DNA from: a virus
Virus record (IMG/VR): IMGVR_UViG_3300034375_009575
Span: 1-27,692 of that record
Direction: 5' to 3' (one strand)
DNA: 27,692 bases
The position numbers were made by a program, and so were the translations under genes. The notes beneath the pieces are model-generated. The model made no database searches. It was not told where the DNA came from and worked only from the letters and a program-made list of their open reading frames with translations. Below, in pieces: positions 186 to 25,323 of the stretch. The first letter of the stretch is position 1. Every line of letters begins with the position of its first letter.

Positions 186-487
186 CCAAGATGAACAAAT
201 CCCGCTGGAACGCTGACCGGAAGCGTCGAGACGCGGAGGAAGCGGAGCGGGTGGCCGAAATGGAGTTCCGTCGCGTGATCGGGGAGGGACCAACGGAGCC
301 GGGACAGTTTCTCGGGTCGCTATCCTGGCAGGGGGCTGACGGAGTAAAGCGCAAGTGGGTGATTCGCAGAGGACAGTCCCGCAACCGGATCTCTGTGGAC
401 GGGATCGAGAAAGAAAACGGGTGGTCATGGTTGTTCGACCGACTGCGGAGGCATTGCGCTTGCCTCACTCGCTACAACGCCGATTAG
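143..487 (+). CDS. Small basic protein of unknown function (114 aa)
   Basis: This plus-strand gene follows the partial gene at 1-120. I prefer the ATG at 143; a TTG at 125 would add six residues but lies in the repeated leader. Residues 1-45 are very rich in Arg, Lys and Glu with a helical, coiled-coil-like pattern (ERARNRSAKMNKSRW, then RKRRDAEEAERVAEM). The C-terminal half looks like a small beta-rich domain (GSLSWQGADGVKRKWVIRRG). The composition suggests nucleic-acid binding, but no family is recognised. It converges on the winged-helix gene, and the two 3' ends overlap by 23 bases. A degenerate copy of its first codons lies at 23853-23942 on the minus strand. Confidence 0.6.
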   Translation: MNPRKTIERARNRSAKMNKSRWNADRKRRDAEEAERVAEMEFRRVIGEGPTEPGQFLGSLSWQGADGVKRKWVIRRGQSRNRISVDGIEKENGWSWLFDRLRRHCACLTRYNAD

Positions 488-782
488 ACAAATACGGGTC
501 ACGGTCGGCCGGGTAATAGTAATACTTCTTCCGTCCCCTCACGCCCGGCTCAGACGCCGCTACACGTCTCCACTTTCCCTGGCTAACCCGCCGCTGCAGT
601 ATTGCATAGGTGGCCGACGTGGGACGCTCGAGAAGGATTGCCCAGTCATCCGCAGACTTTGCAATCTCGGTGTTGATGTCTCCCGCCATCGCTGGCGGAT
701 CCTCTCCAAATCCCTCGTCGAGATCGTCGAGGGCGCGTTGCAGGGCATCGTCAAATTTTGAGGCGCAATCTTTCAAGTCCAT
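465..782 (-). CDS. Putative winged-helix DNA-binding protein (105 aa)
   Basis: The start is placed at the ATG at 782, which overlaps the end of the phosphoesterase gene by 10 bases and has an AGAGCG upstream; in-frame ATGs further up lie deep inside that gene. Residues 1-40 are acidic and helical. Residues 45-100 have the layout of a winged helix: a helix ending in LLERPTSATY, a recognition-helix-like YAILQRRVSQGKWRRV, then a basic hairpin GVRGRKKYYYYP like the wing of MarR/ArsR-type folds. It is the last gene of the long minus-strand late cluster. It may be a transcription factor or a phage-encoded regulator, but this rests on the sequence pattern only. Confidence 0.6.
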   Translation of the reverse strand: MDLKDCASKFDDALQRALDDLDEGFGEDPPAMAGDINTEIAKSADDWAILLERPTSATYAILQRRVSQGKWRRVAASEPGVRGRKKYYYYPADRDPYLSNRRCSE

Positions 783-1555
783 TTCGCTCTGGGATCCATC
801 CATTCGTTTTCGCCGCGTTGGCGCCTTAGAAACCATCCCTCCCATTTTCCCGTCCGGTTGTTCACCACCCCGAAAATCAACCCGTTATCGTGAGCAAGGG
901 CGGCAACGCTTCGGTCGAGGTAGCGCATATTCAGGTCAGCCAGGCACGGCGCAGACATAGCCATTCCTCCGTCTACGTGGCGCGGTATGTGGAGATCACA
1001 CTTGTGGACGTGTCCGCAGATCACGGAAGGGCCATAGTTCTCGCTGTGGGCCTTGGCGGGATACATGGTAGCGCGGAACCCATGAATCATGTTAATATCT
1101 CCCAACTTGTAAACCCCCCTCGCGCTGTGGTAGGGGACCAGGGTTTTAATTTCCAGTTTACGAAACAGACCGCCGAATTCCTTTACCGGCTCCCGGTCGT
1201 CGGTTCCCTGCAGGGCAATCACCATATCCCGCGCATAGGTGGCTGTGGCGCCGCAGTTGCTGTCCATCGCTTCCCATACGCGCACGTCGTGGTTTCCCAG
1301 TAGCAGCGTGTCGGGGCGATACCACTCAAGCAACTCCTGCTCAGCAATAAAATCATCCTGCATCCTTTCACGCCGCTCCTCGCCGCTTGCCCCCTTGCGC
1401 AGAGGGCGGAGATCAAATAAGTCACCGCCGTGTATACGATGCTTGGGTTTCCAATCTTCGATAAACTCCCGCGCTTTTGCGGCGGCCGATCGGTCGATCT
1501 GGTCCCCGTGTGTATCAGACAGGAACACGAAAGGCTCCCAGTTTAATCCGGCCAT
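773..1555 (-). CDS. Calcineurin-like metallophosphoesterase (260 aa)
   Basis: All the metal-binding motifs of the calcineurin-like phosphoesterase superfamily are present in order: SDTHGD (Asp14, His16), GGDLFD (Asp45), GNHD (Asn88, His89), MIHG (His158) and GHVH (His182, His184). Members hydrolyse phosphomonoesters or phosphodiesters with two metal ions. Phage versions are thought to act on nucleic acids or nucleotides, but the substrate is not evident here. The ATG at 1555 is chosen because earlier codons overlap the 91-aa gene. It sits downstream of the lysis genes and overlaps the winged-helix gene, so both are probably read through from the late transcript. Confidence 0.9.
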   Translation of the reverse strand: MAGLNWEPFVFLSDTHGDQIDRSAAAKAREFIEDWKPKHRIHGGDLFDLRPLRKGASGEERRERMQDDFIAEQELLEWYRPDTLLLGNHDVRVWEAMDSNCGATATYARDMVIALQGTDDREPVKEFGGLFRKLEIKTLVPYHSARGVYKLGDINMIHGFRATMYPAKAHSENYGPSVICGHVHKCDLHIPRHVDGGMAMSAPCLADLNMRYLDRSVAALAHDNGLIFGVVNNRTGKWEGWFLRRQRGENEWMDPRAKWT

Positions 1556-7295: not shown

Positions 7296-7313
7296 ATAAC
7301 ATACCATAACATG
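7296..7313 (+). promoter_or_regulatory. Paired TAACAT element upstream of the plus-strand 206-aa gene
   Basis: TAACAT occurs at 7297-7302 and again at 7307-7312, spaced by exactly 10 bases, ending 40 bases before the ATG at 7353. The same pair, in gene orientation, precedes the tape-measure gene and, in weaker form, the protease-capsid gene. On the opposite strand a possible divergent promoter for the fibre gene, TTGAAA (7324-7319), 17 bases, TGTTAT (7301-7296), overlaps the element. Confidence 0.55.
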
Positions 7314-7352
7314 GGGATTTTCAAAACGCGCCCGGTCGTGGTAGATTGTAGC

Positions 7353-7973
7353 ATGGCTGGCTTTGCTGATTTGGATTTAGACGTTTCTGAGCTTATCGAG
7401 GCGATGCGCCTCTATGAGCAAGCCACAAAAAAAGACGCTGCAGAGATCGTTAACCGAGCCGCTAGGAATGCGGTCTTTGATAAGACATACGGAGCGTTTG
7501 CACACGCCCCAAAAAGCACAGTCGGAAAAATGGGAAAATACGAGCCGAAGCAGCGGCGGCGGTATTCGGAGGCAAACACGTTGTTTCACGCATTAGCGAC
7601 CGAGGGAAACCGCTTTGGAAAAGCCAAACGTGGCCAGGGAAACCGGGACGTAGCTGCAAAAACTTGGAGAGCCCGGCGGAGGGCCTTCGGATATTCCCGA
7701 GCCGTCTGGGCTGCCATCGCAAAAGACTTCGGGGCAAGGCTCCGTGGAAAGTTTGACGTGGACACCCACAAGACAAGAAAGGCTACGCCGCTCAATCCCG
7801 TGGCCCTGTTCGACACCGGCCCTTTTTCCGACAGTCGCAGCGATTCAGAAAACGCTAAATATCGCGGCGAACAAACCAGGGCACTGCAACGGGGAATTAA
7901 CGGTGCCGCCAAAGACATGGCCGAGTATGCAGCATCAAAACTGCAGGAACGAGCAGATAGGTTTTCCGGCTGA
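7353..7973 (+). CDS. HK97 gp10/minor-tail-like protein on the opposite strand (206 aa)
   Basis: This is the only plus-strand gene inside the structural region. The ATG at 7353 is preferred over 7254 or 7311 because the paired TAACAT element would otherwise lie in the coding sequence. The N-terminus (LDLDVSELIEAMRLYEQATKKDAAEIVNRAARNAVFDK) has the helical pattern of HK97 gp10-like or neck/tail-completion proteins. The rest is basic (KAKRGQGNRDVAAKTWRARRRAFGYSRAVW) with a polar helical tail. No firm family match can be claimed. It ends 9 bases from the convergent 297-aa gene, with no terminator hairpin seen. Confidence 0.55.
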   Translation: MAGFADLDLDVSELIEAMRLYEQATKKDAAEIVNRAARNAVFDKTYGAFAHAPKSTVGKMGKYEPKQRRRYSEANTLFHALATEGNRFGKAKRGQGNRDVAAKTWRARRRAFGYSRAVWAAIAKDFGARLRGKFDVDTHKTRKATPLNPVALFDTGPFSDSRSDSENAKYRGEQTRALQRGINGAAKDMAEYAASKLQERADRFSG

Positions 7974-7982
7974 TTCCTTGCG

Positions 7983-8876
7983 CTAAGACTGCCACGATCC
8001 TGATTCCCAGAGTTCTTTGGGGGAAATCGTAAGCGTTAACGAGTAAGTCCAGGGATCATAAGCCCCAATCTCAAGAGATCCGAGATCGAAAAGCAGAAAC
8101 GGCAACCCGCAGAAAGTCACCCCGGAATAAGTGCTGCCCCTGTCGTCAATCTCATCCCCAAACACGAGTGTGGTTGCAAGGGACTGTGACGTGCCTACGC
8201 CTTCATCGTCCAACACTGACAAAGAAATCGAAAAATAAATCTCTGGCAGGTAAACGCCGTCAACCGGATCCGCGAAAAGATGCTCTTGGGCGTTTGAAAT
8301 ATCTACAGCATTTCCTCCAGCGATTGATGCGGTAATGTTTACATTGCTATCCTCGTTGCTGTCGGTCAGGCTGCACGCGAATCCATATCTCCCGCGCTTC
8401 CCGCTATTGGGGCGAGTGCCCGGTGAGCCAAGGGTTGTAATTGCCCCTGCCGGAATATCTTGATCGAAACTAACTCCCGCGACGGTCGCCTGAAGTCTCC
8501 ACGTTTTCACGTTGTAAATGATGTGCGCGGAAAGGCTGCGGCTCTGCGGCTCGCCCCAGCCGGTGAGGTCGATAGGCGCGTATTTGTAGCCCTCTTGCTC
8601 CCTCTCAAACCTCTCCTTTCGGTTTAAGACCTCTCCGATGCTTCCCTCTCCGCCGTCTCCGTATGTTGGGAATGGAATAATGGGTTGAAAAGGGATCCAA
8701 GGGCCGCCGGATTCATTCCTGACGTTGTCGCCCGATCCATCTACCTCAAGGCCAACTACGTCCGACGGGGTCGTTGATCCCGCCCCTCCCCATATCTCAT
8801 TAGAGAGGAAATTGTGACGACGGCGCAATGCGTATTGCCCGGCCGGCCTCAACTCTTGTAAAAAGATACTGCTCAT
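7983..8876 (-). CDS. Tail-tip-region protein of unknown function (297 aa)
   Basis: The ATG at 8876 overlaps the previous gene's stop (ATGA). The protein is acidic and beta-rich, with an N-terminal region of Gly/Pro-rich sequence (GGPWIPFQPIIPFPTYGDGGEG) and long alternating hydrophobic stretches toward the C-terminus (PEIYFSISLSVLDDEGV, then SLEIGAYDPWTYSLTLTIS). No family is recognised. Third of three coupled genes after the tape measure, it probably belongs to the distal tail or baseplate. Confidence 0.55.
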   Translation of the reverse strand: MSSIFLQELRPAGQYALRRRHNFLSNEIWGGAGSTTPSDVVGLEVDGSGDNVRNESGGPWIPFQPIIPFPTYGDGGEGSIGEVLNRKERFEREQEGYKYAPIDLTGWGEPQSRSLSAHIIYNVKTWRLQATVAGVSFDQDIPAGAITTLGSPGTRPNSGKRGRYGFACSLTDSNEDSNVNITASIAGGNAVDISNAQEHLFADPVDGVYLPEIYFSISLSVLDDEGVGTSQSLATTLVFGDEIDDRGSTYSGVTFCGLPFLLFDLGSLEIGAYDPWTYSLTLTISPKELWESGSWQS

Positions 8877-9520
8877 GCCGGAAGGCAGGAAATTGACGGC
8901 TCCGGCCAATAGCAGGGTATCAAGCGGCCGTTGTCGTCCTCAATCAAGGTTTCGTAAAGCTGCAAGTCTGCGTTCGGCGCAATCCTGATTGCTGAAATGG
9001 TGCTGTTGACGGTTGCCGCGTCCGACGGGGCACCCGTCGATGAAACAAAAGCCCAGAGAGGATAATAAACATTATTCACCGTATACAGCCCCGACGTTGC
9101 ATCTAGAGTGGTGTCGAGCGGCTGCGGGTATCCCGTCCAAGCCGCCGTAACCTTTGCAGTCGTGGTCAAGTTTGGCTGGATCTCCAAAACAAGCCAGGAA
9201 TCAACCGCAGCCGTATGATCTGCCCCAATGTCGGTAATCGTGACAAGCCCCGAACTATTCAGGGCGTGGGTCTTTTTCAGCGTCCCTGGGTTGGTAATCT
9301 GAACAGTTGCCGCCTCGTCATCTTGAACAGCAAGGCCCCATTTCGGATTCTGGATCGACGAAGGCTCTGGAATTGGCGGCGGTTTTACACCTCCTGCAGT
9401 TCGCTCCCAACCCGGAATACCGTCACAGAGGATCCAGTTGGACCGGAGGAGTTTCAGGATGCGGTTAAAGGTGCGTTTCCCGAATCCTTTCTCTACCTGC
9501 TTGAAATCGGGCTGATTCAT
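8873..9520 (-). CDS. Tail-tip-region protein of unknown function (215 aa)
   Basis: Residues 1-32 are basic and helical (FGKRTFNRILKLLRSNWILCDG). A Pro-rich linker (VKPPPIPEP) follows, then a beta-rich domain to the end. This layout suggests an adaptor whose N-terminus docks onto another tail protein. Start and stop both overlap neighbours by four bases. No family was recognised. Confidence 0.55.
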   Translation of the reverse strand: MNQPDFKQVEKGFGKRTFNRILKLLRSNWILCDGIPGWERTAGGVKPPPIPEPSSIQNPKWGLAVQDDEAATVQITNPGTLKKTHALNSSGLVTITDIGADHTAAVDSWLVLEIQPNLTTTAKVTAAWTGYPQPLDTTLDATSGLYTVNNVYYPLWAFVSSTGAPSDAATVNSTISAIRIAPNADLQLYETLIEDDNGRLIPCYWPEPSISCLPA

Positions 9521-10140
9521 CCGTCATTCTCAATGCGAATTGTCCAACTCTCGGTAACGCCCCAAACGCCCGTAGCCAACTCGACAAGAACGAAGTCAGT
9601 AAGGCGCCCCTCTACTTTTGTCTGCAGCGTTCCCGTGTAGGATGCGGGGTAATGACCAAAAAGGGTATTGGTAGGAACCTCCGTCGGAACCACCGCCTTA
9701 TACCGAGGGGCGGTCGGGGCGGATCGGCCTCGGTGAATCCACCTGGTTGTAGCTGATTGTGCGTAAAACTGCGCCTGGACGTTCTGCGACTGTCCATTTT
9801 CGCCGGGTTCGTCCGTGGTAAAGGTTCCGCTCTGCAGGGGTGTGGATTGCTCCACTGAAATGGGGTTTGCTACAGCGCTGGTAAGGTATCCGGCAAAATT
9901 GAGAGTAATTTGGCCGATTGAACTTTTATTTTGCGTAACGCGCTTACTCTGCAAATACATATTAGGGTACCCCAGAGACGTGCCTACGCGCCCCCGTGTC
10001 CACAGGGCGCTTTCTGTGTCCAGCCCGCTGGCTGCCCCTTCTCGGATAATCGTGACCGTATCAACCCCCTCGGAGTTTTCAAACTCGTCCGTGCTAACGG
10101 TGCGGAAAGCCGTGTTTCCTACGTATGATGCGGTTGCCAT
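9517..10140 (-). CDS. Structural protein downstream of the tape measure (207 aa)
   Basis: The ATG at 10140 overlaps the tape-measure stop (TAATG). The sequence is Thr/Ser/Gly-rich and beta-like throughout (TVTIIREGAASGLDTES, then IGQITLNFAGYLTSAVANP), with no membrane segments and no enzyme motifs. By position it is a distal-tail or minor-tail candidate, but it does not resemble a classic Dit or Tal protein by eye. Confidence 0.55.
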   Translation of the reverse strand: MATASYVGNTAFRTVSTDEFENSEGVDTVTIIREGAASGLDTESALWTRGRVGTSLGYPNMYLQSKRVTQNKSSIGQITLNFAGYLTSAVANPISVEQSTPLQSGTFTTDEPGENGQSQNVQAQFYAQSATTRWIHRGRSAPTAPRYKAVVPTEVPTNTLFGHYPASYTGTLQTKVEGRLTDFVLVELATGVWGVTESWTIRIENDG

Positions 10141-11912
10141 TACGTCGCGAGCCCCTCCCGCAGCACAGCAAGTTGCTCCTCCTGAATCCTGATTTGCTCG
10201 TTTGCGGCGGAGAGCTGGTCTTGGAACACTCGCTTTCCTTCGGCCGCGTCGGCTGCCTCCTTGCGCCCTACTGCTTTCACGGCGCCGAGGCCTCCTGTGG
10301 CACCGATGCCTCCGGCTCCAACTGCGACACCGGCGCGCCTCATTGCGTTTAGCGTTCCGAGCGGAGCGCCCCCAAGTCCCCCTTTTGCTCCGATCCCATA
10401 GAATCCAGGGGAAACTCCATCCGCTTTGTCAATTTGTAGCTGCTCCAGTGCTGCGAGTCCGTGAAATCCTCGGGATTTGTGATCTGATCCCGGTTTTGGC
10501 AGAGCCGGCATGAGCGCCATTCCTTTTCCGAACATATCGCGATGCTGATCCAGCCGGGAAACTCGCTTGCTTGCTTTCTCCGCGCCTCTGGCAAGTGCCG
10601 CGTCAATTGCGTGGTGTCCACCCCCTGTCGGTGCAGGAAGGCTGCCGCCGGGGGGCGCGGTTGTGCCAAGAGCCCCTCCGTTGCGATCCGCTGGCGGCCC
10701 TGACGGCTTCGTGAGCGCCTCAACCGCATCTTTTAGGTTCTTTGTGGCATCCTCTAGTCCGAAAAAATCTCCGTCTAACTTGTCATCCAAAAAGTCCGTA
10801 ACCATGCCGCCGAGATCCGCCTTACCTTGTTTTCCCTTTGCCAAACCATCGAGGCCGGCAATAACAACGCCGAAAGGGGCGAGAACGGCAACAAGGGCTC
10901 GAGCGAGCCCTTCCTCAAGGCCGTTCTTGAGCCCATCAACCCAATGCTTTGACATCTTGGCCCACAACTCCCCAAATGCGACTGTAGCCCTCGCTAGGGC
11001 TTCCAAAACAGCGTTTCCTAAAAATGCTGCAGCAACCTTGAAAGCCGCCTTGATAACCTCCAGCGCATTCTCCATGTTGAGATTTGAGGCGATGTTCTGC
11101 CCGAGTTGCGCGAGGTCGAGCGTGTTAAACTTTTCGAGCACTTCAAGTATTTTGGGGGCGGCTACGCTGGCGATGCCGACAAAGAAACCCTGCAGCTTTT
11201 TCCCGGCCGAATTGAGAAGGTCTGAGATGCGGTCAAATGTTTGCGCGTTCTTGTCGAGGATGTCGGCCTGCGTTCCTATGGTTTGCGCCGCCTTCCCGAT
11301 GGCCCCAGCATCATTAAACAGCGCTTGCAGTTCGCCGCCAGACCTTCCGAAAATGTCCATTGCAGTAGCCGCCCGCAAAGTTGGGTCTGGAATTTTTGCG
11401 AGGGAGTTTTGCAGCATTTGAAACTGCTGCAAAGGCGACTTGTTGCGGATGTCATCGTAAGTGATGCCGAGCCTCTCAAATGCTCGCACCTGAGTAGAAA
11501 GGCCCGCGCCAAAGTCGGAAATGCCTTTCTGCATCTTGTTGATAATTGCCCCAACTTTATCGGCGGAAATTCCGTTGTCTTCAAAAGCCTGTTCAAGTAT
11601 GACCAGCTCCTTTACAGCAATCCCGGTTCGGCTTGATAAATCAGATAAAGCGCCTCCTACATCAAAGGCTTTGCGAAGCTCTCGTCCCAGCTTAACCGCG
11701 CCGGCCGTAGCGGCCGCAAAAGTGACCGTCGCAGCGATGGCGGCAAACTTGGCTAGGCTTGCCGTGATTTTCTGCAACGATCCGCCAATCTGCCGAAAGC
11801 TGTTTCCGATGGTCTTTGCCGTTGCGGCACTAGCTAACTTCACACGCCGCAATCCGGCTTGAAATTCGGTAGAGTCGAGGGAAACCTTCCCTTTGAGGTT
11901 GAAAGACGGCAT
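10140..11912 (-). CDS. Tape measure protein (590 aa)
   Basis: The N-terminus (LKGKVSLDSTEFQAGLRRVKLASAATAKTIGNS) is the standard start of tape measure proteins. Residues 55-75 and about 240-370 contain hydrophobic helices (FAAIAATVTFAAATAGAV, ALARALVAVLAPFGVVIAGLDGL) that may enter the host membrane. Residues 90-235 hold the conserved pattern SRTGIAVKELVILEQAFEDNGISADKV and GITYDDIRNKSPLQQFQML, seen in this family. The C-terminal 200 residues are Gly/Pro/Ala-rich and end in a helix (QDQLSAANEQIRIQEEQLAVLREGL). At 590 residues it is short for the family, which implies a fairly short tail. A paired TAACAT element lies 37 bases upstream. Confidence 0.88.
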   Translation of the reverse strand: MPSFNLKGKVSLDSTEFQAGLRRVKLASAATAKTIGNSFRQIGGSLQKITASLAKFAAIAATVTFAAATAGAVKLGRELRKAFDVGGALSDLSSRTGIAVKELVILEQAFEDNGISADKVGAIINKMQKGISDFGAGLSTQVRAFERLGITYDDIRNKSPLQQFQMLQNSLAKIPDPTLRAATAMDIFGRSGGELQALFNDAGAIGKAAQTIGTQADILDKNAQTFDRISDLLNSAGKKLQGFFVGIASVAAPKILEVLEKFNTLDLAQLGQNIASNLNMENALEVIKAAFKVAAAFLGNAVLEALARATVAFGELWAKMSKHWVDGLKNGLEEGLARALVAVLAPFGVVIAGLDGLAKGKQGKADLGGMVTDFLDDKLDGDFFGLEDATKNLKDAVEALTKPSGPPADRNGGALGTTAPPGGSLPAPTGGGHHAIDAALARGAEKASKRVSRLDQHRDMFGKGMALMPALPKPGSDHKSRGFHGLAALEQLQIDKADGVSPGFYGIGAKGGLGGAPLGTLNAMRRAGVAVGAGGIGATGGLGAVKAVGRKEAADAAEGKRVFQDQLSAANEQIRIQEEQLAVLREGLAT

Positions 11913-11949
11913 GGCACGGTGCCCCTTCAGTCCGTAAATATCCCGCTAT

Positions 11950-11965
11950 ATGTTACACCATGTTA
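11950..11965 (-). promoter_or_regulatory. Paired TAACAT element upstream of the tape-measure gene
   Basis: On the minus strand TAACAT is at 11965-11960 and again at 11955-11950, a 10-base phase, ending 37 bases before the ATG at 11912. It lies in the 62-base gap between the 83-aa gene and the tape measure. It shares the 11-base core CCATAACATGG with the element at 7296-7313. Confidence 0.6.
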
Positions 11966-11974
11966 TGGCGTTTC

Positions 11975-12226
11975 TCAATCCTGCAGCCCTGCGTCGAAGA
12001 GTTCGGACGCGGCCTGTATCATCTCCTCTTCCTTTTCCTGCTGGGGGCTGGCCCATCCGCCGTCATGGCCGTCCTGGTCCGCAAGTGCATATCCTTCGTA
12101 ATCTGGCGGGTCAGGTTGGTTCGTAGTCTGGTCGCTGTCTGCCTTCTTCTGGCACAGCTTGCAGACGTAGTTGAGCTCGGGGAGACATACGCAGGGAGTC
12201 TCAGCCATCCATGAAGGGCGTTTCAT
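11975..12226 (-). CDS. Small Cys-containing protein before the tape measure (83 aa)
   Basis: The ATG at 12226 overlaps the stop codon of the -1 frame chaperone extension (ATGA), so its translation is coupled to the frameshift product. The N-terminal half carries two close Cys pairs (CVC at about 12-14 and CKLC at about 22-25) that could hold zinc. The remainder is acidic and Gln/Glu-rich (PQQEKEEEMIQAASELFDAG). No family is recognised. It may be a small tail-assembly factor. Confidence 0.55.
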   Translation of the reverse strand: MKRPSWMAETPCVCLPELNYVCKLCQKKADSDQTTNQPDPPDYEGYALADQDGHDGGWASPQQEKEEEMIQAASELFDAGLQD

Positions 12227-12467
12227 TCGTCAATGATCCAGTCATCAAAATGGTCGCCGAGAATTTCACGAACCTGGTTCCGTAGTTTTCCGCCACCCGC
12301 AGGGCGCATTTTCACGTTTTGCCGCATTAGTCCGAGTGTTCGCAGTTGGAGCATCTGTGCCACGGGCAACTCGAGTATCTCGGCGACGGTATAGGCGCCT
12401 CCCGTGGCAATCGCTATTAAGCCGACGTTTTCGCAGATGCTCCCGATTGTTCCCCCAGGCTTTCCCC
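12223..12467 (-). CDS. Tail assembly chaperone, -1 frameshift extension (G-T type)
   Basis: The -1 frame relative to the 178-aa chaperone gene stays open through and beyond that gene's stop and runs to a TGA at 12225-12223. It encodes about 75-79 residues of normal composition after the slip site (TVAEILELPVAQMLQLRTLGLM, KLRNQVREILGDHFDDWIIDE). It has no good start of its own, and the next gene's ATG overlaps its stop, both expected of a lambda G-GT arrangement. The fused product would start at 12953 and be about 243 residues. In lambda-like phages such products are made at a few percent of chaperone level and help tape measure and tube assemble. Confidence 0.8.
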
Positions 12468-12953
12468 CGGTTCGGCCGGGTTGCTCTGGTCGATCTCAGC
12501 GGCACTCTCAACGATTTCCTGCACGATGTCGCCGAATGCTTCGACTAGATGCCCGTGATTCGCGTTACCGAACCGGATTCCGTTCTGGTTGGCCCAGTTC
12601 ATTGCCTCCTCTCGCACCGATGACGAAACCCGGAGCGCCCTCTTCGACACGGATAGCGGGGAAATGCACAGAAACACGACCAGCACCGCGTCGAGGAAAA
12701 TGCCGTTGTAGGTTCCTCGATCCTGAAACTCTGAAATCGCTTCCTCGCCCATGTTAAAAAACTCCATGCCGAGCTTCTGGGCGGCAATCTGCCGATGCGT
12801 GTTGAAGGGCTCGATTTTGGCCGGCCCTCCATGTTTTCCGCCGAAAGGCAACTCTTTCGTCTCGTCCGCAGCCTTCAAAAAGGCAACGTCTTTGCTGCTA
12901 ATGTCCCCAATCCCGTCGCCGGGATCGTCCAAGTCCAAGTTTAGATCGCTCAT
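12417..12953 (-). CDS. Tail assembly chaperone, G type (178 aa)
   Basis: The ATG at 12953 overlaps the previous gene's stop (ATGA); longer in-frame starts fall in that gene. The protein is acidic at the N-terminus (MSDLNLDLDDPGDG). It has ELPFGGKHGGPAKIEPFNTHRQIAAQKLG at about 34-62, which resembles the start of tail chaperone domains, and a mixed helical middle. Position immediately before the tape measure, together with the conserved-looking -1 extension, makes the role likely even though overall similarity to lambda gpG is not visible by eye. Confidence 0.7.
   Translation of the reverse strand: MSDLNLDLDDPGDGIGDISSKDVAFLKAADETKELPFGGKHGGPAKIEPFNTHRQIAAQKLGMEFFNMGEEAISEFQDRGTYNGIFLDAVLVVFLCISPLSVSKRALRVSSSVREEAMNWANQNGIRFGNANHGHLVEAFGDIVQEIVESAAEIDQSNPAEPGESLGEQSGASAKTSA
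12450..12468 (-). promoter_or_regulatory. Candidate -1 ribosomal frameshift site, tandem GGGGGAA
   Basis: On the minus strand the heptamer GGGGGAA occurs at 12468-12462 and again at 12456-12450, both in the same register (G GGG GAA). The P-site GGG re-pairs perfectly after a one-base backward slip; the A-site GAA would pair with GGA and is imperfect. A slip at either site enters the open -1 frame. Lambda's own heptamer GGGAAAG also occurs here, but in the wrong register. Confidence 0.55.
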
Positions 12954-13663
12954 GTCCACCTCTCTATTAATTCTTTGAATTTCGGCCCTCTCTCCAACAC
13001 CAGCGGCGGCAGACCGTGGCCGCGCTTGATCCTTATGGCTTGTGGCACATCTTGCCACAGGTTGGAGAGTTCCAATCGGTTCTGGCGGTAAGCCTTGAGC
13101 CATCCAACCATTGCAGGGCGCCAACACCGAATCATTACGCTTGCGGCGCGATTTCTGTCTTTCTGCTCTATGGCGCTCTCCAGGTGGGTGACTTCGAACT
13201 TGTCGAGCGTGTCAATCCCGTATTGCTCCTCTTTCCCGATCTCCCACACATCAGGGACAGCAATGCGCCCCCGGGAGAGTTCTTTCATGTGAGCGACGAT
13301 GGCAGATAAGTAGACCGGCTGAAATGCGTGGACGACCTCCACCAGCTTCTGCCCGTCTTTCGCGCCCTTGATGCGCTGGGGAAACGCCTCGGCCGATCGG
13401 AACGCCGCCTCCGGGTCGTTCCAAACCTCGATAAACTCGTTAATGTTGATGTCATTCGCGAGCTGCGGGAGATACATCCGCACATCGCCGGGCTGCCCCG
13501 GCTCAAATGGGTGCCCTTGGTCGTAAACGTTCGATACCTTTGGAGTCCCCTCGCAGAGTTCAAAGCCGATTGTTGTTGCGGCGGCGACAAAGGCGAGCCG
13601 GTCGTCCTTATCGACCGGCTGCGCCTTGAAGCCTACGCGTGTCAGTTCGTTGCCACTTCCCAT
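12950..13663 (-). CDS. Unknown protein between tail tube and chaperone (237 aa)
   Basis: The ATG at 13663 is preferred to a TTG at 13672. The protein is soluble, with a mixed alpha/beta N-terminus (DRLAFVAAATTIGFELCEG, GDVRMYLPQLANDININEF). A helical C-terminal half is rich in Trp and Arg (MIRCWRPAMVGWLKAYRQNRLELSNLW). No known family is recognised. In most siphoviruses nothing of this size separates the tube protein from the chaperone, so it may be a lineage-specific tail or assembly protein. Confidence 0.55.
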   Translation of the reverse strand: MGSGNELTRVGFKAQPVDKDDRLAFVAAATTIGFELCEGTPKVSNVYDQGHPFEPGQPGDVRMYLPQLANDININEFIEVWNDPEAAFRSAEAFPQRIKGAKDGQKLVEVVHAFQPVYLSAIVAHMKELSRGRIAVPDVWEIGKEEQYGIDTLDKFEVTHLESAIEQKDRNRAASVMIRCWRPAMVGWLKAYRQNRLELSNLWQDVPQAIRIKRGHGLPPLVLERGPKFKELIERWT

Positions 13664-13698
13664 ATACCCCAATCGTTTGCAATCCCGTTTATATGGCT

Positions 13699-14082
13699 TC
13701 AGGCAACTGTTACGCCATTGAGCCGCGTCATGTTGAGCGTTGCAGATTGGAACGCGTCCCGGCTCATCGAAATCTCGATGTCATCAAGGAGATAATCGCC
13801 CGTCGTGGTATCGTATCCGTCTGTGGAGTTCGCCACGGTGAGGGCAGCGCCGAAAGAGGCGCCAAAAACGCCAGTGAGGGCAGTAGTGACCTCGCCCTCG
13901 ATCGTTACGGTTGAGTTCGGGTCGAAATCATGGGCAAAGCCGGTGCGGCCGCCGTAGATGTCGAAAACGTATTCTTTCGGATTCTCGAAACGCTCCCGGA
14001 AAGATGAAATGTTGATGCTGCTCTCTGTGCTGCTGATTCCGCGAACGTGGGAGCCGCCTTGAATGTAAGAAGGTGTTGCCAT
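13699..14082 (-). CDS. Probable major tail (tube) protein (127 aa)
   Basis: The ATG at 14082 (MATPSYIQGGSHVRG) is preferred over the longer frame, whose extension overlaps the upstream gene and has low-quality sequence. The body has the pattern of small tube proteins: an opening strand and helix, then TVTIEGEVTTALTGVFGASFGAALTVAN, and a closing strand DDIEISMSRDAFQSATLNMTRLNGV. Order after the connector genes and before the chaperone supports this. Each tail ring would contain several copies. The size is small for a tube protein, so a minor tail role is possible. Confidence 0.6.
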   Translation of the reverse strand: MATPSYIQGGSHVRGISSTESSINISSFRERFENPKEYVFDIYGGRTGFAHDFDPNSTVTIEGEVTTALTGVFGASFGAALTVANSTDGYDTTTGDYLLDDIEISMSRDAFQSATLNMTRLNGVTVA

Positions 14083-14116
14083 TGTAAAATAGGTGTTGGG
14101 TGTTGGGTTGCTGGAA

Positions 14117-14539
14117 TCAGGCAGCGTCAGAAATTTCTTTCGTCTGCGCCCAGACTCCGAATGTATAAGTAAATGTCTCGTCGAGGCCGGATCCGGTCTT
14201 TGTGCCGCCGTCCAGGTCAATTGCCTGGCCCTGCGGCATCACGAACTGGGTCGCGCCCTCAGTAGCGAGAGCGGTTGAAAACTCGTAGGCGTTGTCAAAA
14301 ACCTCCTCCAGAGTGTCTAGGGTCTGGTCGGTGTGCTGCCCGTGTGCGGTCACAGTGACGGAATGCGAAAACATGCCAGAGCCGACGGGGTCCTCTGACA
14401 CGCGAACGGCACGAACCGCAATGTAGTCTTTCTCGGCTTTTTCGCCGTCGCCGAACTGGATTACCTGGGCAGAGGGAAGCGCCGCGTCGATCAATGCGAC
14501 GATTGCAGTCTCAAGTCGTTTTGCTAACGGCGCGGACAT
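14117..14539 (-). CDS. Tail terminator / head-tail joining protein (140 aa)
   Basis: The N-terminus (SAPLAKRLETAIVALIDAALPSAQVIQFG) and following beta-hairpins (DYIAVRAVRVSEDPVGSGMFSHSVTVTAHGQHTD, then LDTLEEVFDNAYEFSTAL) match the layout of tail terminator or tail-completion proteins (gpU-like). The start overlaps the preceding stop (TAATG). It sits between the head-tail joining gene and the tube gene, the expected place. Confidence 0.6.
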   Translation of the reverse strand: MSAPLAKRLETAIVALIDAALPSAQVIQFGDGEKAEKDYIAVRAVRVSEDPVGSGMFSHSVTVTAHGQHTDQTLDTLEEVFDNAYEFSTALATEGATQFVMPQGQAIDLDGGTKTGSGLDETFTYTFGVWAQTKEISDAA

Positions 14540-14856
14540 TACGGTGTCTCAATGGTGAGCGTTTTCGCTCGTGTGCCCTCCTCGGACACCTCAAGAATGC
14601 GAAACGTCGTTGCGCCGATGATGACGGTTGATTCCTCGTCGATTGTTGCCGGAAGGTCCGAGGCCGCAATCGTGATCTGCGTTTGCCCTACGTCGTGGAG
14701 TATCCCTTCCCCGTCCATGTCCAGCGTAGACGACAGCTCGTATGGCAGGATAGCCTGGATGCCGGCAGTTCCGTTGATTGTCACGGTCTGCTCTCCAGTG
14801 AGATCCCACACTTCCGAAAAAGCCTTATCGTGATCCGCTGTAACGTTGGTAGCCAT
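14539..14856 (-). CDS. Head-tail joining protein, gpFII-like candidate (105 aa)
   Basis: A small beta-rich acidic protein with DHDKAFSEVWDLTGEQTVTINGTAG near the start and the characteristic end DEESTVIIGATTFRILEVSEEGTRAKTLTIE. This resembles phage head-tail attachment proteins of the gpFII type. Its start lies just after the 11-bp hairpin at 14863-14902 and it has no clear ribosome-binding site, so that structure may influence its translation. Confidence 0.6.
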   Translation of the reverse strand: MATNVTADHDKAFSEVWDLTGEQTVTINGTAGIQAILPYELSSTLDMDGEGILHDVGQTQITIAASDLPATIDEESTVIIGATTFRILEVSEEGTRAKTLTIETP

Positions 14857-14862
14857 GTAAGA

Positions 14863-14902
14863 AAGGGGGAGCGAAGAAAACTCAAAAACTCCGCTCCCCC
14901 TT
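14863..14902 (-). terminator. GC-rich hairpin between connector genes
   Basis: AAGGGGGAGCG at 14863-14873 pairs perfectly with CGCTCCCCCTT at 14892-14902 (11 bp, 18-base loop). Read on the minus strand the stem is followed by TCTTAC, so the arm end and the next bases give a short T-rich tail. It could be a leaky intrinsic terminator or attenuator, or a translational control element, for the 105-aa gene 7 bases further on. Confidence 0.5.
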
Positions 14903-14950
14903 CGTGCTGGGATTTACAAACCGAGGGTAACGGTTGTGGTAAAAAATTTG

Positions 14951-15262
14951 TTACTTCTGCTTTCGGGTGGCGGATTGAGTTACGGCTTTTTGTGAATCCT
15001 TGCTCTCGGGGCGTGCGGAAAGGAGATCTTTCGCCGAGTTCACAAGGGCGCTTGCGTCGATGCCAAGCGCCTCCTCTGCTGCCTTCTTTTCGGATCCCGA
15101 GAATCCTTCCCACGCGCCAAGGCTGCGTTCCGCATCGGACAGGCCGCGAAGGGCTTGCCTCGTCTGCTGTTGCAGGCCGTAAAGGATGCGAGCAGACCGG
15201 CCACCGCTGGAAGGGGCGGCGCTTGGTGCTAGGTAGGAGGGGAGGGATTTCATCGGACACAT
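14951..15262 (-). CDS. Unknown small head-region protein (103 aa)
   Basis: Mostly helical and polar. Two in-frame ATGs (15262 and 15253) are possible and neither has a clear ribosome-binding site. Residues 20-70 contain RILYGLQQQTRQALRGLSDAERSLGAWEGFSGSEKKAAEEALG, and the tail is basic (ATRKQK). It lies between the capsid-associated 87-aa gene and the head-tail joining gene, where connector or completion proteins occur, but no family is recognised. Confidence 0.5.
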   Translation of the reverse strand: MCPMKSLPSYLAPSAAPSSGGRSARILYGLQQQTRQALRGLSDAERSLGAWEGFSGSEKKAAEEALGIDASALVNSAKDLLSARPESKDSQKAVTQSATRKQK

Positions 15263-15270
15263 GGGGAAAA

Positions 15271-15534
15271 TCAGTCGTCAGCCTTTTTCTGGGCTGCCTT
15301 CTTTTTGGCCGCCTTCTTTTTCGGCGGCTCTGATTTCTGATCGCTCTTTTCTTCCGGTTCCGGGGACGGAGTCGGGGCGGGTTCGGGCGCTGGCCTTTCG
15401 TCGCCTTTCACGGGGACGGCTCCGGCGCACATGAGGCCGCCGGCATGGTTCTTGTCGTCCTCGGTAACGATCTCGCCAGCGGCTTTTGGGACGCCCCGGT
15501 GAATTGTTCCGTTTTTCGTAATCTTGAGCTTCAT
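15271..15534 (-). CDS. Small capsid-associated protein with Lys/Ala tail (87 aa)
   Basis: The ATG at 15534 is chosen over a TTG at 15585. Residues 1-45 form a small beta domain (KLKITKNGTIHRGVPKAAGEIVTEDDKNHAGGLMCAGAVPV) like proteins often found next to phage capsid genes. A Pro/Glu linker (PEPAPTPSPEPEEK) leads to a strongly basic tail, PPKKKAAKKKAAQKKADD, of histone-H1-like composition. The tail could contact packaged DNA or another capsid protein. This is inferred from composition only. Confidence 0.6.
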   Translation of the reverse strand: MKLKITKNGTIHRGVPKAAGEIVTEDDKNHAGGLMCAGAVPVKGDERPAPEPAPTPSPEPEEKSDQKSEPPKKKAAKKKAAQKKADD

Positions 15535-15588
15535 AGAAAATGATCTTACGGGGCTGCGTGGGTGTATGATTTGTTTCCCCTTCAATGA

Positions 15589-15610
15589 CCCTCCCCCGTA
15601 AAGGGGAGGG
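15589..15610 (-). terminator. Hairpin after the capsid gene
   Basis: CCCTCCCC at 15589-15596 pairs with GGGGAGGG at 15603-15610 (8 bp, 6-base loop), located 22 bases after the capsid stop codon on the minus strand. There is no T-run after the stem, so it is not a textbook terminator. It may stabilise the abundant capsid mRNA or lower expression of the genes that follow. Confidence 0.4.
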
Positions 15611-15631
15611 CCTGAAAGGTGTCATGCGCTA

Positions 15632-17641
15632 TTAGCTGAGCGCGCCAGCGTGTGCGGTTCCGTCGTCGCCGATGACAAACGCATTCGGCTGGAGGAGTCC
15701 GCAGTCTGCGAAGGTCTCTGCGTAAAGCTCGACCTGCCCGGACTTCTTCTGACTGTAGGGGTCGTAGGTCAGCATGATGCCGCCCCACATCGCCACGAAC
15801 AAACGCGAGAAGTCTCCGAGGATAACCTTCGTCGCAGTAACGTCGGTGTGCTCGTAGAACGGGCGCCCTGCGACTGTGTAGCCGCCGCTGTTCGGGTTTT
15901 CCTCGATAACAAACTTGCCGGTAGAGGCGGCAAGCTGCGTCTGATACCAGTTCGACCAGGTGGCCGTGTCGGTGAGGAACGTTCCTCGCTCAAGCGGGGC
16001 GTTGTTGTCTCGGTAATCTTCGATCTGCTCGACGATGTTCACCCAGAGTGCGGAGCCGACCTGCCAAGTGTAGGAATCGGTTCCAGAGGCACTCAGGACG
16101 CCAGTAGGGGCGTCTCCACCGGCTCCGGTGATGGCTGCGCGGTCCACTGCGGTTGCGATGGCGTATTGCAGCTCTCCACGAACCCACGACTCGAAATCGA
16201 CCGAGGACTGAGCCAGGAGTTGCTTCGATACTGCCGTTCCTGCGCCTACTCGCTTGGGCGAAAGGGTGAGGTTGGCCGCAAACGTTGCGTCGGCGTTGGC
16301 GATCGTGTCCGTCTCCGCGTCCCAGGTGCCGCTGTAGCCAGCGGTGGAACGAGGAAATTCAAGGTTGCCAACAGCATCCCGAAAGATCGTCGCGCCAACA
16401 CGAGGAAGGATCGAGTAGTCCTTGAGGTAATCGGTGAGGCCCTGCATCTCGGTTTCGACCGTGTTACCGCCCGACGTTCCGGTTCCGACCGTAGCGGCAT
16501 TCTGAATGCCGGAACTCTTGGCGTTCCAGTATTCGGCCGGGATCAGGAGGCCGTCTGCAACCTTGCCGGTTGCGTTGCGGTAATTGGCTGCAAGTTCGTC
16601 CTGCACCTCTTTCTCCAGCCCGTCGAGCCGCCCTTCGTTGACGTGCTGCTTAAGAGCCTTGAAAAGAGAATAACGCTCGGCGCCTTTGTCTCCTACGTGA
16701 GCGGAGTTCTTGAGCTCGTTGGCGTTGATTTGCCCACCGGCAACGGTGGCTGTGAAGCTCTCCGGGTCGAAACCGTCGAGGACGGAATTGCGGAAAGTTT
16801 CGATTTCGACGCCGTCCTCAATCGCTTTGGAGATCTGGTCGTCGGAAAGATTGAATTTCTTACCGATTGCCTGGATCTCGTCGCGACGCGGCTTATCTGC
16901 CGCGAGGGCGTCCTTGATGCTGATTTGCGGCTTTTCTGCCGGCTTGGGTTCTTCACTCATTGCAATGGGTGTTTCGATTGGTTCTTGTGGGGTTGGTTTG
17001 GGTTCGGGTGTGGGTTCCGGCTCTGGCTCTGCCTTTCCGAATACCAACCCTTTTGGAAATTCCTTTTCTCCGATGCGCTCCTTCCATGCAGAAGCACAGG
17101 CGGCGGCCTTCACCGTCTCCATGACCGTGTCGGCAAAACCGCGTTCGACAGCTTCGGCGCCGTCCATAAAAGTTTCGTGGCGCATGAGATCCTCGACCGT
17201 CTCCGCATCGAGCCCAGTGCGCTTAACGTATGCTGAGACAATCCCGTTTTGGATTTTCTCAAGGGTCGCCGCCATGTCGATCATCTCTTGGGCGTCTCCG
17301 ATGACCCCGGCCCAGGGGTTGTGAATCATCAGAAAAGCGTTTTCCGGCATTGAGATGTGATCGGCAGCCATCAGGATGACAGAAGCCATAGACCCGGCGA
17401 AGCCTTCTACTTTAGCGTGGATCTGAGCGGGGTGTTCCTGCAATGCGTTGAAGATCGCCCAGCCGTCGAGAACATCGCCGCCCGGCGAGTGGACAGATAG
17501 CGAAATGGTATCGACCGCATGAAGGGATTTCAGATCGTCGATAAATTGCTTGGCGTTCACGCCGAAGTATCCGATCTCGTCATGGATCGAAATGTCGGCC
17601 GTGTTAGCCTTTGCGTTGATGGAATACCAAGAATTTTTCAT
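15632..17641 (-). CDS. Fused ClpP-like prohead protease and HK97-fold major capsid protein (669 aa)
   Basis: The ATG at 17641 has AGGGG about 8 bases upstream; an in-frame start at 17671 lacks this. Residues 1-185 are a ClpP-type serine protease, with SVHSPGGDVLDGW, the nucleophile Ser84 in GFAGSMAS and His107 in MIHNPW, and then FMDGAEAVERGFAD. A Pro/Glu linker (about 203-227) leads to a scaffold-like helical region (about 240-350) and an HK97-type capsid domain (LLIPAEYWNAKSSG to the end). The protease normally removes the delta/scaffold part during capsid maturation. An internal Met at 16960 could start a separate capsid chain, but no ribosome-binding site is visible there. A degenerate TAACAT pair lies 36 bases upstream. 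Confidence 0.88.
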   Translation of the reverse strand: MKNSWYSINAKANTADISIHDEIGYFGVNAKQFIDDLKSLHAVDTISLSVHSPGGDVLDGWAIFNALQEHPAQIHAKVEGFAGSMASVILMAADHISMPENAFLMIHNPWAGVIGDAQEMIDMAATLEKIQNGIVSAYVKRTGLDAETVEDLMRHETFMDGAEAVERGFADTVMETVKAAACASAWKERIGEKEFPKGLVFGKAEPEPEPTPEPKPTPQEPIETPIAMSEEPKPAEKPQISIKDALAADKPRRDEIQAIGKKFNLSDDQISKAIEDGVEIETFRNSVLDGFDPESFTATVAGGQINANELKNSAHVGDKGAERYSLFKALKQHVNEGRLDGLEKEVQDELAANYRNATGKVADGLLIPAEYWNAKSSGIQNAATVGTGTSGGNTVETEMQGLTDYLKDYSILPRVGATIFRDAVGNLEFPRSTAGYSGTWDAETDTIANADATFAANLTLSPKRVGAGTAVSKQLLAQSSVDFESWVRGELQYAIATAVDRAAITGAGGDAPTGVLSASGTDSYTWQVGSALWVNIVEQIEDYRDNNAPLERGTFLTDTATWSNWYQTQLAASTGKFVIEENPNSGGYTVAGRPFYEHTDVTATKVILGDFSRLFVAMWGGIMLTYDPYSQKKSGQVELYAETFADCGLLQPNAFVIGDDGTAHAGALS

Positions 17642-17676
17642 GGATGCGCCCCTCGTTGCGCATCCCAGCATTTAAT

Positions 17677-17692
17677 ACTTTACGATATGTTA
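17677..17692 (-). promoter_or_regulatory. Degenerate paired TAACAT element upstream of the protease-capsid gene
   Basis: On the minus strand TAACAT at 17692-17687 is followed 10 bases on by TAAAGT at 17682-17677 (four of six matching). It ends 36 bases before the ATG at 17641. The spacing and orientation match the elements before the tape measure and the plus-strand 206-aa gene. Confidence 0.45.
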
Positions 17693-17798
17693 TGATTCTT
17701 GCAAATTCGGCAATCCTGAGAGGATAATTTGAGCACCACAGGCAGCACCGATAGGACGGTCGATCCGAACGAAACCACATGCCCTCGGCGCACTGTCA

Positions 17799-23942: not shown

Positions 23943-23971
23943 TCTTTCAAGGTTGCGTTATCTGCTTGTTC
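23939..23971 (-). repeat. Right copy of the dispersed inverted repeat
   Basis: Thirty-three minus-strand bases identical to 96-128 except for one. They cover the last codons (NKQITQP) and stop of the Mom-like gene and the first bases beyond it. Weaker similarity continues through the remnant at 23853-23942. Confidence 0.75.
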
Positions 23972-24633
23972 TGCTTTGAAATATCACGGCGCAGCGTGAA
24001 CTTGTGTTTTGCGTGTCTCCCCTCGAACTGAGCTCCGAGGTCGATCATTTCTTGATGGGTTCGCGTGTTGCCTCCTGCCTTCCGGGCGGTCATCACACCA
24101 TTCACTGTGTAGGTCGCCTCCGCGTTCGTCAGTCCCTCGTATTTCCAGTTCGCTGCTTTATAGATCGTCCCTTCATGGCCGCGCCATTCGTCCGCGTAGG
24201 TCACGAGGCAAGGCCATTTCTCAGCCGGTATCAGTTTCACGCTCCGCGCTAGGAGGAACGAGCAAGCGTTTTTCGGCATATCCGGCGCGACCACCAGCCG
24301 AGACAACGCAAGAACACCTTGCCAGTTCTCAGGGTAGGTGGCCTCCGCTGCGCTTCTCGTCGGCGGTATCCACCACGCCACTCCCACACAATCGCAATCC
24401 CAGAATGCGCCTTTCGGGAACATCCCGTGGAGATAGGTTCGCGTATTCGATGCGCCTTTCGCGTAGTGGTATTCTTGCACCATTCGCCGCGCAACGTCGA
24501 TTGACACTGGACGCACTTCCCAATCGGCTTTTCGCAACCGATCCCCATAAGCAGAACAAGGCGCGGCAGAGCAACCCGCCTTAGCTGTGGGTTGCTCTGC
24601 CGTCTCTCGTTTCAATAGGGTTGTGTCCGTCAT
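23947..24633 (-). CDS. Mom-like DNA-modification protein, GNAT-type fold (up to 228 aa)
   Basis: The pattern resembles the phage Mu Mom family (methylcarbamoyl modification of adenine in phage DNA): VSIDVARRMVQEYHYAKG, FWDCDCVGVAWWIPP, LALSRLVVAPDMPKNACSFLLARSVKLIP, PCLVTYADEWRGHEGTIYKAANWKYEG. Such modification protects phage DNA from host restriction. The conserved part begins at about residue 38. The ATG at 24633 gives 228 residues, but a TTG at 24537 preceded by GGGGAT would leave the direct repeat and hairpin in an untranslated leader. Assignment to Mom itself, rather than another GNAT-like phage protein, is by motif recall only. Confidence 0.7.
   Translation of the reverse strand: MTDTTLLKRETAEQPTAKAGCSAAPCSAYGDRLRKADWEVRPVSIDVARRMVQEYHYAKGASNTRTYLHGMFPKGAFWDCDCVGVAWWIPPTRSAAEATYPENWQGVLALSRLVVAPDMPKNACSFLLARSVKLIPAEKWPCLVTYADEWRGHEGTIYKAANWKYEGLTNAEATYTVNGVMTARKAGGNTRTHQEMIDLGAQFEGRHAKHKFTLRRDISKQNKQITQP
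24551..24577 (+). repeat. GAACAAG...GCAACC element inside the Mom-like gene
   Basis: GCAGAACAAG followed after 11 bases by CAACCC, similar to 96-116, 24966-24993 and the minus-strand copy at 23977-23952. Read on the minus strand, this element and the one at 24966-24993 encode similar peptides, GCSAAPCS and GCSPPACS, near the N-termini of two adjacent genes. Confidence 0.45.
24564..24602 (-). promoter_or_regulatory. Perfect 14-bp hairpin in the 5' part of the Mom-like gene
   Basis: CGGCAGAGCAACCC at 24564-24577 and its exact complement at 24589-24602 enclose an 11-base loop. In the mRNA it forms a strong GC-rich stem about 30 bases after the first ATG and 27 bases before the alternative TTG start. 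In phage Mu, mom translation is controlled by a leader hairpin opened by the zinc protein Com; a similar role here is inference. Confidence 0.6.
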
Positions 24634-24644
24634 TCAATAGGGTT
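24611..24644 (-). repeat. 12-bp direct repeat across the Mom-like start codon
   Basis: On the plus strand TTCAATAGGGTT occurs at 24611-24622 and at 24633-24644, a 22-base period close to two helical turns. The upper copy overlaps the ATG at 24633. The pattern suits binding of a tandem or dimeric protein that controls the gene. Confidence 0.5.
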
Positions 24645-24685
24645 TGGTGTATCGTCGGCGGGTGCCTGCGCTTGGGCGTTCTGTC

Positions 24686-25033
24686 CTAAAGTTTCGACCA
24701 GTCGTGGCAGGTATCCGCCATAACCTTAGCCATTCGCTCAACTTCGCGGAACGCTTTGGAGGCAGTCTCGGCTTGGATCTGGGCGGATTTCAGCGCGACT
24801 ATTTTATCCTCTTCGGGATCTTGGAACCGATACATCGCTTTTCGCAAGTGGTGCGCGCCGAACCCCGCGTATTCCAACATTTCGGCGACATCGTAGCGCA
24901 GTTCGCACAGCGCATCGTCGGTGATGCCTTCGCCTGTCCAGTCGCAGCCGTCCTCGCCCCACGGGACAGAACAAGCAGGTGGAGAGCAACCGCCCTCCCG
25001 CTGGGTGTTTTCGTCGTCTTTTTTCTTATTCAT
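24686..25033 (-). CDS. Unknown protein with Cys-bearing N-terminus (115 aa)
   Basis: The first 35 residues are charged and Cys-containing (GGCSPPACSVPWGEDGCDW). The rest is helical: ITDDALCELRYDVAEMLEYAGFGAHHLRKAMYRF, then KSAQIQAETASKAFREVERMAKVMADTCHDW. The GCSPPACS stretch mirrors GCSAAPCS in the Mom-like protein, and the DNA is also similar, suggesting a shared inserted or duplicated segment. No family is recognised. It lies between the zinc-ribbon gene and the Mom-like gene in the same direction. Confidence 0.55.
   Translation of the reverse strand: MNKKKDDENTQREGGCSPPACSVPWGEDGCDWTGEGITDDALCELRYDVAEMLEYAGFGAHHLRKAMYRFQDPEEDKIVALKSAQIQAETASKAFREVERMAKVMADTCHDWSKL
24966..24993 (+). repeat. 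GAACAAG...GCAACC element inside the 115-aa gene
   Basis: ACAGAACAAG followed by GAGAGCAACCGCC, homologous to 24551-24577. On the minus strand the shared features are GGTTGCTCT, seven bases, CTTGTTCTG, four or five bases, TGGGG. Confidence 0.45.
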
Positions 25034-25074
25034 CGGTTTCAGGTAAATCGTGTTTTACTTGTCGGGGCGGTGCC

Positions 25075-25323
25075 TCACCCTTGGACGTTCGCACAGAAAT
25101 CGCAGAAAAGCGCGCCAGAGAATCCCTCGTTGATTATTGTTTGGCAGCTGTGGCAGAGCGTAGCCCCTCTGCCTCCGTTGAACTTGTGAATCGGCTCAAG
25201 GGGAGGACAACAAACATCGATCAACGCATCGCCTTCTCCCGACTCTCGTTCGTCACAGTTGCAATCGGGGCCTCCTTGGCAGTCAGGATAGTGGTGTTTC
25301 ATGGTGCGGCTGATCCTAGTCAT
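25075..25323 (-). CDS. Small Cys-rich zinc-ribbon protein (82 aa)
   Basis: It contains nine Cys, including CNC and CC in the first half and a clean zinc ribbon at the C-terminus: CHSC, 13 residues, CDFC. The ATG at 25323 directly follows the terminase stop (TGAATG); an ATG seven codons in (MKHHYPDC) is also possible. The C-x2-C-x13-C-x2-C layout is of the same type as the Mu Com translational activator and many phage zinc-ribbon proteins. Since a Mom-like gene with a leader hairpin lies two genes downstream, a Com-like role is an attractive but unproven reading. Confidence 0.6.
   Translation of the reverse strand: MTRISRTMKHHYPDCQGGPDCNCDERESGEGDALIDVCCPPLEPIHKFNGGRGATLCHSCQTIINEGFSGALFCDFCANVQG

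Follow-up and report, generated by a model that had tools for sequence, protein, structure and literature searches.

Tandem RTAACAT boxes before the capsid, tape-measure and a third gene of uncultured phages: a candidate promoter element for virus-particle genes

In well-studied phages, the late genes are under positive control, and in P1 a phage activator binds a phage-specific repeat present in several late promoters (PMC10695390). The middle promoters of T4 join a host -10 to a phage element upstream, the MotA box, and are read with the host polymerase (PMC2988021), and the stoperators of mycobacteriophage L5 are asymmetric sites that lie in short intergenic gaps along the direction of transcription (PMC9283540). 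Here, we describe a spaced direct repeat that bears some likeness to each of these systems and offers a phylogenetically footprinted, testable candidate for a promoter element of structural genes, from a phage family that lacks a cultured close member. A literature search returned no paper joining TAACAT with phage, promoter and direct repeat. The window, as we call the whole stretch of DNA analysed, is an entire virus record of 27,692 bases, itself a fragment.

The paired box and the genes behind it

A motif search of the window located TAACAT-N4-TAACAT exactly at 7297-7312 (+) and 11950-11965 (-), together with a third copy at 17677-17692 (-), TAACATATCGTAAAGT, which is read from 17692 to 17677 and has two mismatches. 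These are the places given in the initial annotation, whose claim that every copy is aimed at the next gene was likewise borne out. On the sequences compared, the unit is refined to RTAACAT-N3-RTAACAT: it takes the form ATAACAT-acc-ATAACAT before a gene for a 206-aa protein (7296-7312, +), ATAACAT-ggt-GTAACAT before the tape-measure gene (11950-11966, -) and the degenerate ATAACAT-atc-GTAAAGT before the protease-capsid gene (17677-17693, -). From the end of the pair to the start codon there are 40, 37 and 35 bases, respectively (ATG 7353, 11912 and 17641), and across nine sites of the window and its relatives this leader measures 35-45 bases. The repeat within the pair is direct, not inverted. 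Its first half is the better conserved, being exact in 11 of the 12 listed sites, and variant second boxes (TAAAGT, TAACCT, TATCAT, TAGCAT) retain TAnnnT in most sites. Since box 1 hardly varies and a variant box 2 mostly keeps its TA...T, the main protein contact is apparently made at box 1, and box 2 has the look of a -10 with a resemblance to box 1.

The tape-measure gene (10140-11912, -) encodes 590 aa and matches PHROG 8462 (E 1e-19), and the capsid gene (15632-17641, -) fuses a head-maturation protease with the major capsid protein (Pfam CLP_protease and Phage_capsid); its true start is ATG 17641, not 17671, because relatives align from there. Directly before this ATG lies a predicted leader hairpin, GGATGCGC...GCGCATCC (17642-17665, -; fold of -15.8 kcal/mol for the leader plus 15 coding bases). 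Inverted repeats also stand directly before the capsid start in G012, G015, G017 and G018, and CCTGACGG is common to the capsid leaders of the first three. The 206-aa gene (7353-7973, +) runs opposite to the structural genes and matches no known family: its product has no Pfam or PHROG match and structure prediction gave no reliable model (pLDDT 39), its homologues being 32-45% identical in five contigs. It opposes the structural genes from a gap of its own in the window and in G003, G004, G008, G012, G018 and G022.

Two other loci of the window deserve mention. At 12240-12953 (-), a second frame after 12417 continues with KMRPAGGGKLRNQVREILGDHFDDW, which by eye matches the stretch preceding the tape measure in relatives, and the locus is likely a tail-chaperone pair made by programmed frameshift. 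A Mom-like DNA-modification gene lies at 23947-24633 (-; Pfam Mom, E 2e-26); in the near-identical contig L003, about 1.5 kb of other DNA replaces 23973-25086, and G022 (locus L253) has another Mom-like gene, 27% identical, at 11503-12027.

Recurrence in diverged relatives

Within the window, two exact pairs are seen as against none in 200 dinucleotide shuffles. When any 6-mer pair at spacings of 0-15 is counted, the window has two recurring pairs and the shuffles a mean of 0.43 with a maximum of 2, some 6-mer pair at a fixed spacing recurring by chance in about one-third of them. As a recurring word pair is thus unremarkable, a single genome could not settle the question, and the window by itself makes a weak case. 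The expectation of 0.003 with which the initial annotation had introduced the pair was post hoc, word and spacing having been picked after looking, and the 11-mer that it found shared between two sites, CCATAACATGG, carries no weight because it matches the second box of one site to the first box of the other and is lost in relatives. The significance of the motif lies in its recurrence at the same gaps in diverged relatives.

Such relatives were found by a terminase scan, a capsid-alignment scan and a tail-tube scan. The terminase scan returned relatives at 55-59% identity, in seven of which there is no exact pair, and the pair is absent from most relatives. The initial annotation had counted relatives without the pair at the three gaps as evidence against its reading, and on this point the outcome is mixed. 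Some of the corresponding gaps in these pair-less phages hold other sigma70-like sequence, and promoter-like sequence, for example TTGATT-16-TATATT (read by eye), precedes the tape-measure gene. In G003, G004, G005, G009 and G010, TTGATT/TTGATA-16-TATATT ends 5-8 bases before the tape-measure start codon, which suggests a leaderless transcript.

Set against the seven relatives without the pair are two from the capsid-alignment scan, G015 (contig 3300035070_003862; capsid 60% identical) and G018 (contig 3300043015_002321), in each of which an exact pair precedes the capsid gene. All three homologous gaps of G018 hold the pair, at 51% identity to the window in the capsid, 27% in the tape measure and 44% in the 206-aa protein: GTAACAT-ttc-ATAACAT is 42 bases before the ATG of the 206-aa gene (13185-13201; exact), ATAACAT-gtt-GTAACCT 35 bases before the tape-measure start and GTAACAT-tag-ATAACAT 37 bases before the capsid start. 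Between the window and G018, the boxes agree at 13 of 14 positions (206-aa), 13 of 14 (tape measure) and 10 of 14 (capsid), and the flanks at 7-15 of 45, which is chance level. The comparison shows that the pair is conserved and establishes its location, spacing and direction. Degenerate forms occur in two further relatives: the 206-aa site of G022, found by the tail-tube scan, has box 1 intact and box 2 degenerate, while a second gap of this contig holds ATAACAT-ttc-ATAGCAT 45 bases before an ATG, and the capsid gene of G017 is preceded by ATAAGAT-gaa-TTAACCT. The near-identical L003 (99.6%) also carries the sites; it excludes an assembly error only and was rejected as evidence of constraint.

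Copies inside coding regions, which the initial annotation had named as evidence against a control site, are wanting: at up to one mismatch, none lies within a gene in 1.71 Mb of family loci (overlaps included), where all matches fall in gene-start gaps of pair-bearing contigs. With up to two mismatches, RTAACATN3RTAACAT occurs three times in the window and seven times in G018 against 0.1 expected in each. G018 further contains 14 single RTAACAT boxes against 1.75 expected, among them boxes at 9- and 8-base periods upstream of its terminase gene; there, TTGACG is found 17 bases ahead of a third box, TAACGT (spacing by eye). Some extra copies in G018 adjoin start codons. This contig appears to be a rearranged or composite element: it (L107/L108) has no portal match, its terminase and integrase genes are placed between the 206-aa gene and the genes for the tail, and 667-2412 holds another tape-measure-like gene.

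That a word pair merely recurred by chance in one genome, in promoter-like AT-rich gaps, would agree with the shuffles of the window and with the presence of the pair and a TTG in many unrelated AT-rich phages. It is already contradicted by the relatives, in which the same gaps of G018 and G015 hold the pair at 44-60% protein identity (27% in the tape measure) amid randomised flanks, and we regard it as highly improbable. As for the AT-rich phages, a viral-contig scan for TTG plus the pair returned 112 stretches, with G015 as the sole relative and, as the largest group, AT-rich phages in which the pair forms the end of a reading frame. In L117, L123, L176 and about 20 other viral contigs, 3-5 RTAACAT boxes recur with a period of about 10 bases; they stand between a reading frame that ends in FDYINNIR and a gene of 700-820 aa whose product begins with MQKLQLY, and are partly coding. 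This class was rejected for the window, the sites of which lie outside any such frame and have no protein relation to it.

Promoter anatomy and the putative regulator

The six capsid and tape-measure sites of the window and its relatives all have a TTG at a distance of 16-17 bases upstream of box 2, which would therefore be a sigma70-like -10 with box 1 in the spacer. The proposed -35 of the tape-measure site is TTGAGA (11973-11978, -), 17 bases from box 2 in the promoter scan and the spacing table, and that of the capsid site is TTGCAA (17699-17704, -), 16 bases from box 2 in the spacing table; TTGC stands at the latter position in G015, G017 and G018. The promoter scan, whose total count was no higher than in shuffles, listed the tape-measure promoter independently. 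A sigma70 pattern (TTGACA-like -35, 16-18 bases, TAnnnT -10) is present at the tape-measure and capsid sites and not at the 206-aa sites, neither these nor the G022 1444 site having a suitably spaced TTG, and the second box at the 206-aa gene of G022 does not resemble a -10. An alternative -10 downstream of the pair was rejected as inconsistent among the sites (by eye).

Judged by this comparative evidence, the paired box almost certainly functions in the control of virus-particle genes. More specifically, and with a probability of about one-half, we favour a cis-regulatory element within sigma70-type promoters of the capsid, tape-measure and 206-aa genes that is read by a phage activator. Box 2 would be the -10, which at the capsid and tape-measure sites is paired with the TTGnnn -35; box 1 would lie one helical turn upstream, inside the spacer. 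A phage-encoded DNA-binding protein would most likely bind these boxes on the same face and recruit or assist host RNA polymerase at weak cores (TTGCGC, TAACAT) or, at the 206-aa gene, where a -35 is wanting. Promoter function, reading by a phage protein and a positive, late action are inferred here. The weak cores, the missing -35 and the rule of positive control would favour an activator; several points count against such a promoter-activator arrangement, namely the 206-aa and G022 1444 sites without TTG, the second box at the 206-aa gene of G022, the G018 copies adjoining start codons, whose box 2 could not serve a gene with a leader as its -10, and the seven pair-less relatives.

Overlap with the -10 is commoner among repressor sites, and the same boxes could be operators through which a phage repressor covers the -10 and the spacer, silencing the particle genes in the lysogen or early in infection, like the L5 operators and stoperators. 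Identical boxes would imply one protein on both, the integrase of G018 makes for an apparently temperate member of the group, some G018 copies adjoin start codons, and the sites, like stoperators, are oriented along transcription (PMC9283540). We nevertheless find this rather unlikely: the pair-bearing core promoters look weaker than those of pair-less relatives, the 206-aa sites have no -35, and the window has only 2-3 strong copies against more than 20 sites in L5. The regulator of these putative structural-gene promoters is probably an activator and possibly a repressor.

At the capsid and tape-measure sites, the distances that separate the TTG, the two boxes and the start codon are almost constant, which could also mean that TTG-N6/7-TAACAT-N4-TAACAT is a single unit, recognised without a separate regulator by an alternative sigma factor or a phage-modified polymerase. 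A sigma factor would not be expected to recognise a 7-mer in duplicate, TTG is missing from the 206-aa sites, and no sigma or polymerase gene was found among the G018 proteins scanned, all of which makes this improbable.

Among candidates from the window fragment, G018 and G022, no regulator was accepted. A winged-helix-like frame (by eye) at 465-845 (-), after a metallophosphoesterase gene, has no Pfam match; it was rejected because it has no homologue in other pair-bearing contigs and a similarly placed gene (10871-11152) occurs in the pair-less G012. An XRE-like gene of G022 has no homologue elsewhere, and a small HTH-like gene is common to G018 and G022 only; both were set aside. Two scans of cellular genomes revealed no host or prophage, and a verrucomicrobium is the host of the isolated phage that comes closest in its tape measure.

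The initial annotation had proposed a dedicated late promoter or activator site defining the late regulon of the phage. A dedicated promoter or regulator site, directed at the next gene and common to the capsid, tape-measure and 206-aa genes, agrees with our results. No site of this kind accompanies the terminase, portal or remaining structural genes of the window: core sites score 20-24 bits in the matrix and anything else in the window at most 12. The sites therefore mark three candidate promoters, two of which lie within the run of structural genes; a whole late regulon is more than they demonstrate. As a tentative wider picture, a phage regulator of an undescribed family may read tandem RTAACAT boxes in spacer and -10 and control a regulon of scattered particle genes that also takes in a gene on the opposite strand, in uncultured, perhaps verrucomicrobial, phages, the sites being quickly replaced by other promoters in sister lineages. 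The element suggests that, from one sister lineage to another, capsid and tape-measure genes retain an internal promoter in the same position but exchange its control elements.

Comparison with known phage systems

The Verrucomicrobia phage P8625, the isolate nearest by tape measure (30% over 256 aa), has a similar gene order and is partly the nearest in the protease part of the capsid gene (43%). It differs in having no exact or 1-mismatch pair, only one copy with two mismatches.

With L5, the present sites share asymmetry, placement in gaps and direction along transcription. L5 has one 13-mer at more than 20 sites genome-wide, whereas the present element is a direct repeat with a spacer, has a -35 in phase and occupies few gaps (three strong sites in the window and 4-7 in G018).

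The likeness to the T4 middle promoters lies in a phage element upstream of what we propose is a host-type -10. The MotA box is single, centred at -30, replaces the -35 and is accompanied by an excellent -10; here, in contrast, box 1 would lie near -20, 10 bases upstream of the proposed -10, the -10 is weak and TTG is kept at six sites.

The P1 Lpa system offers a phage-specific repeat in several promoters, as does this phage, the activator here being putative. In place of the 9-bp inverted repeat found among the 11 P1 promoters, the present phages have 7-mers repeated directly at a distance of one turn; one 7-mer coincides with the proposed -10, and some sites retain a TTG. In P1 the repeat is situated around -22 in promoters with a sigma70 -10, which is close to where box 1 falls in the phages described here.
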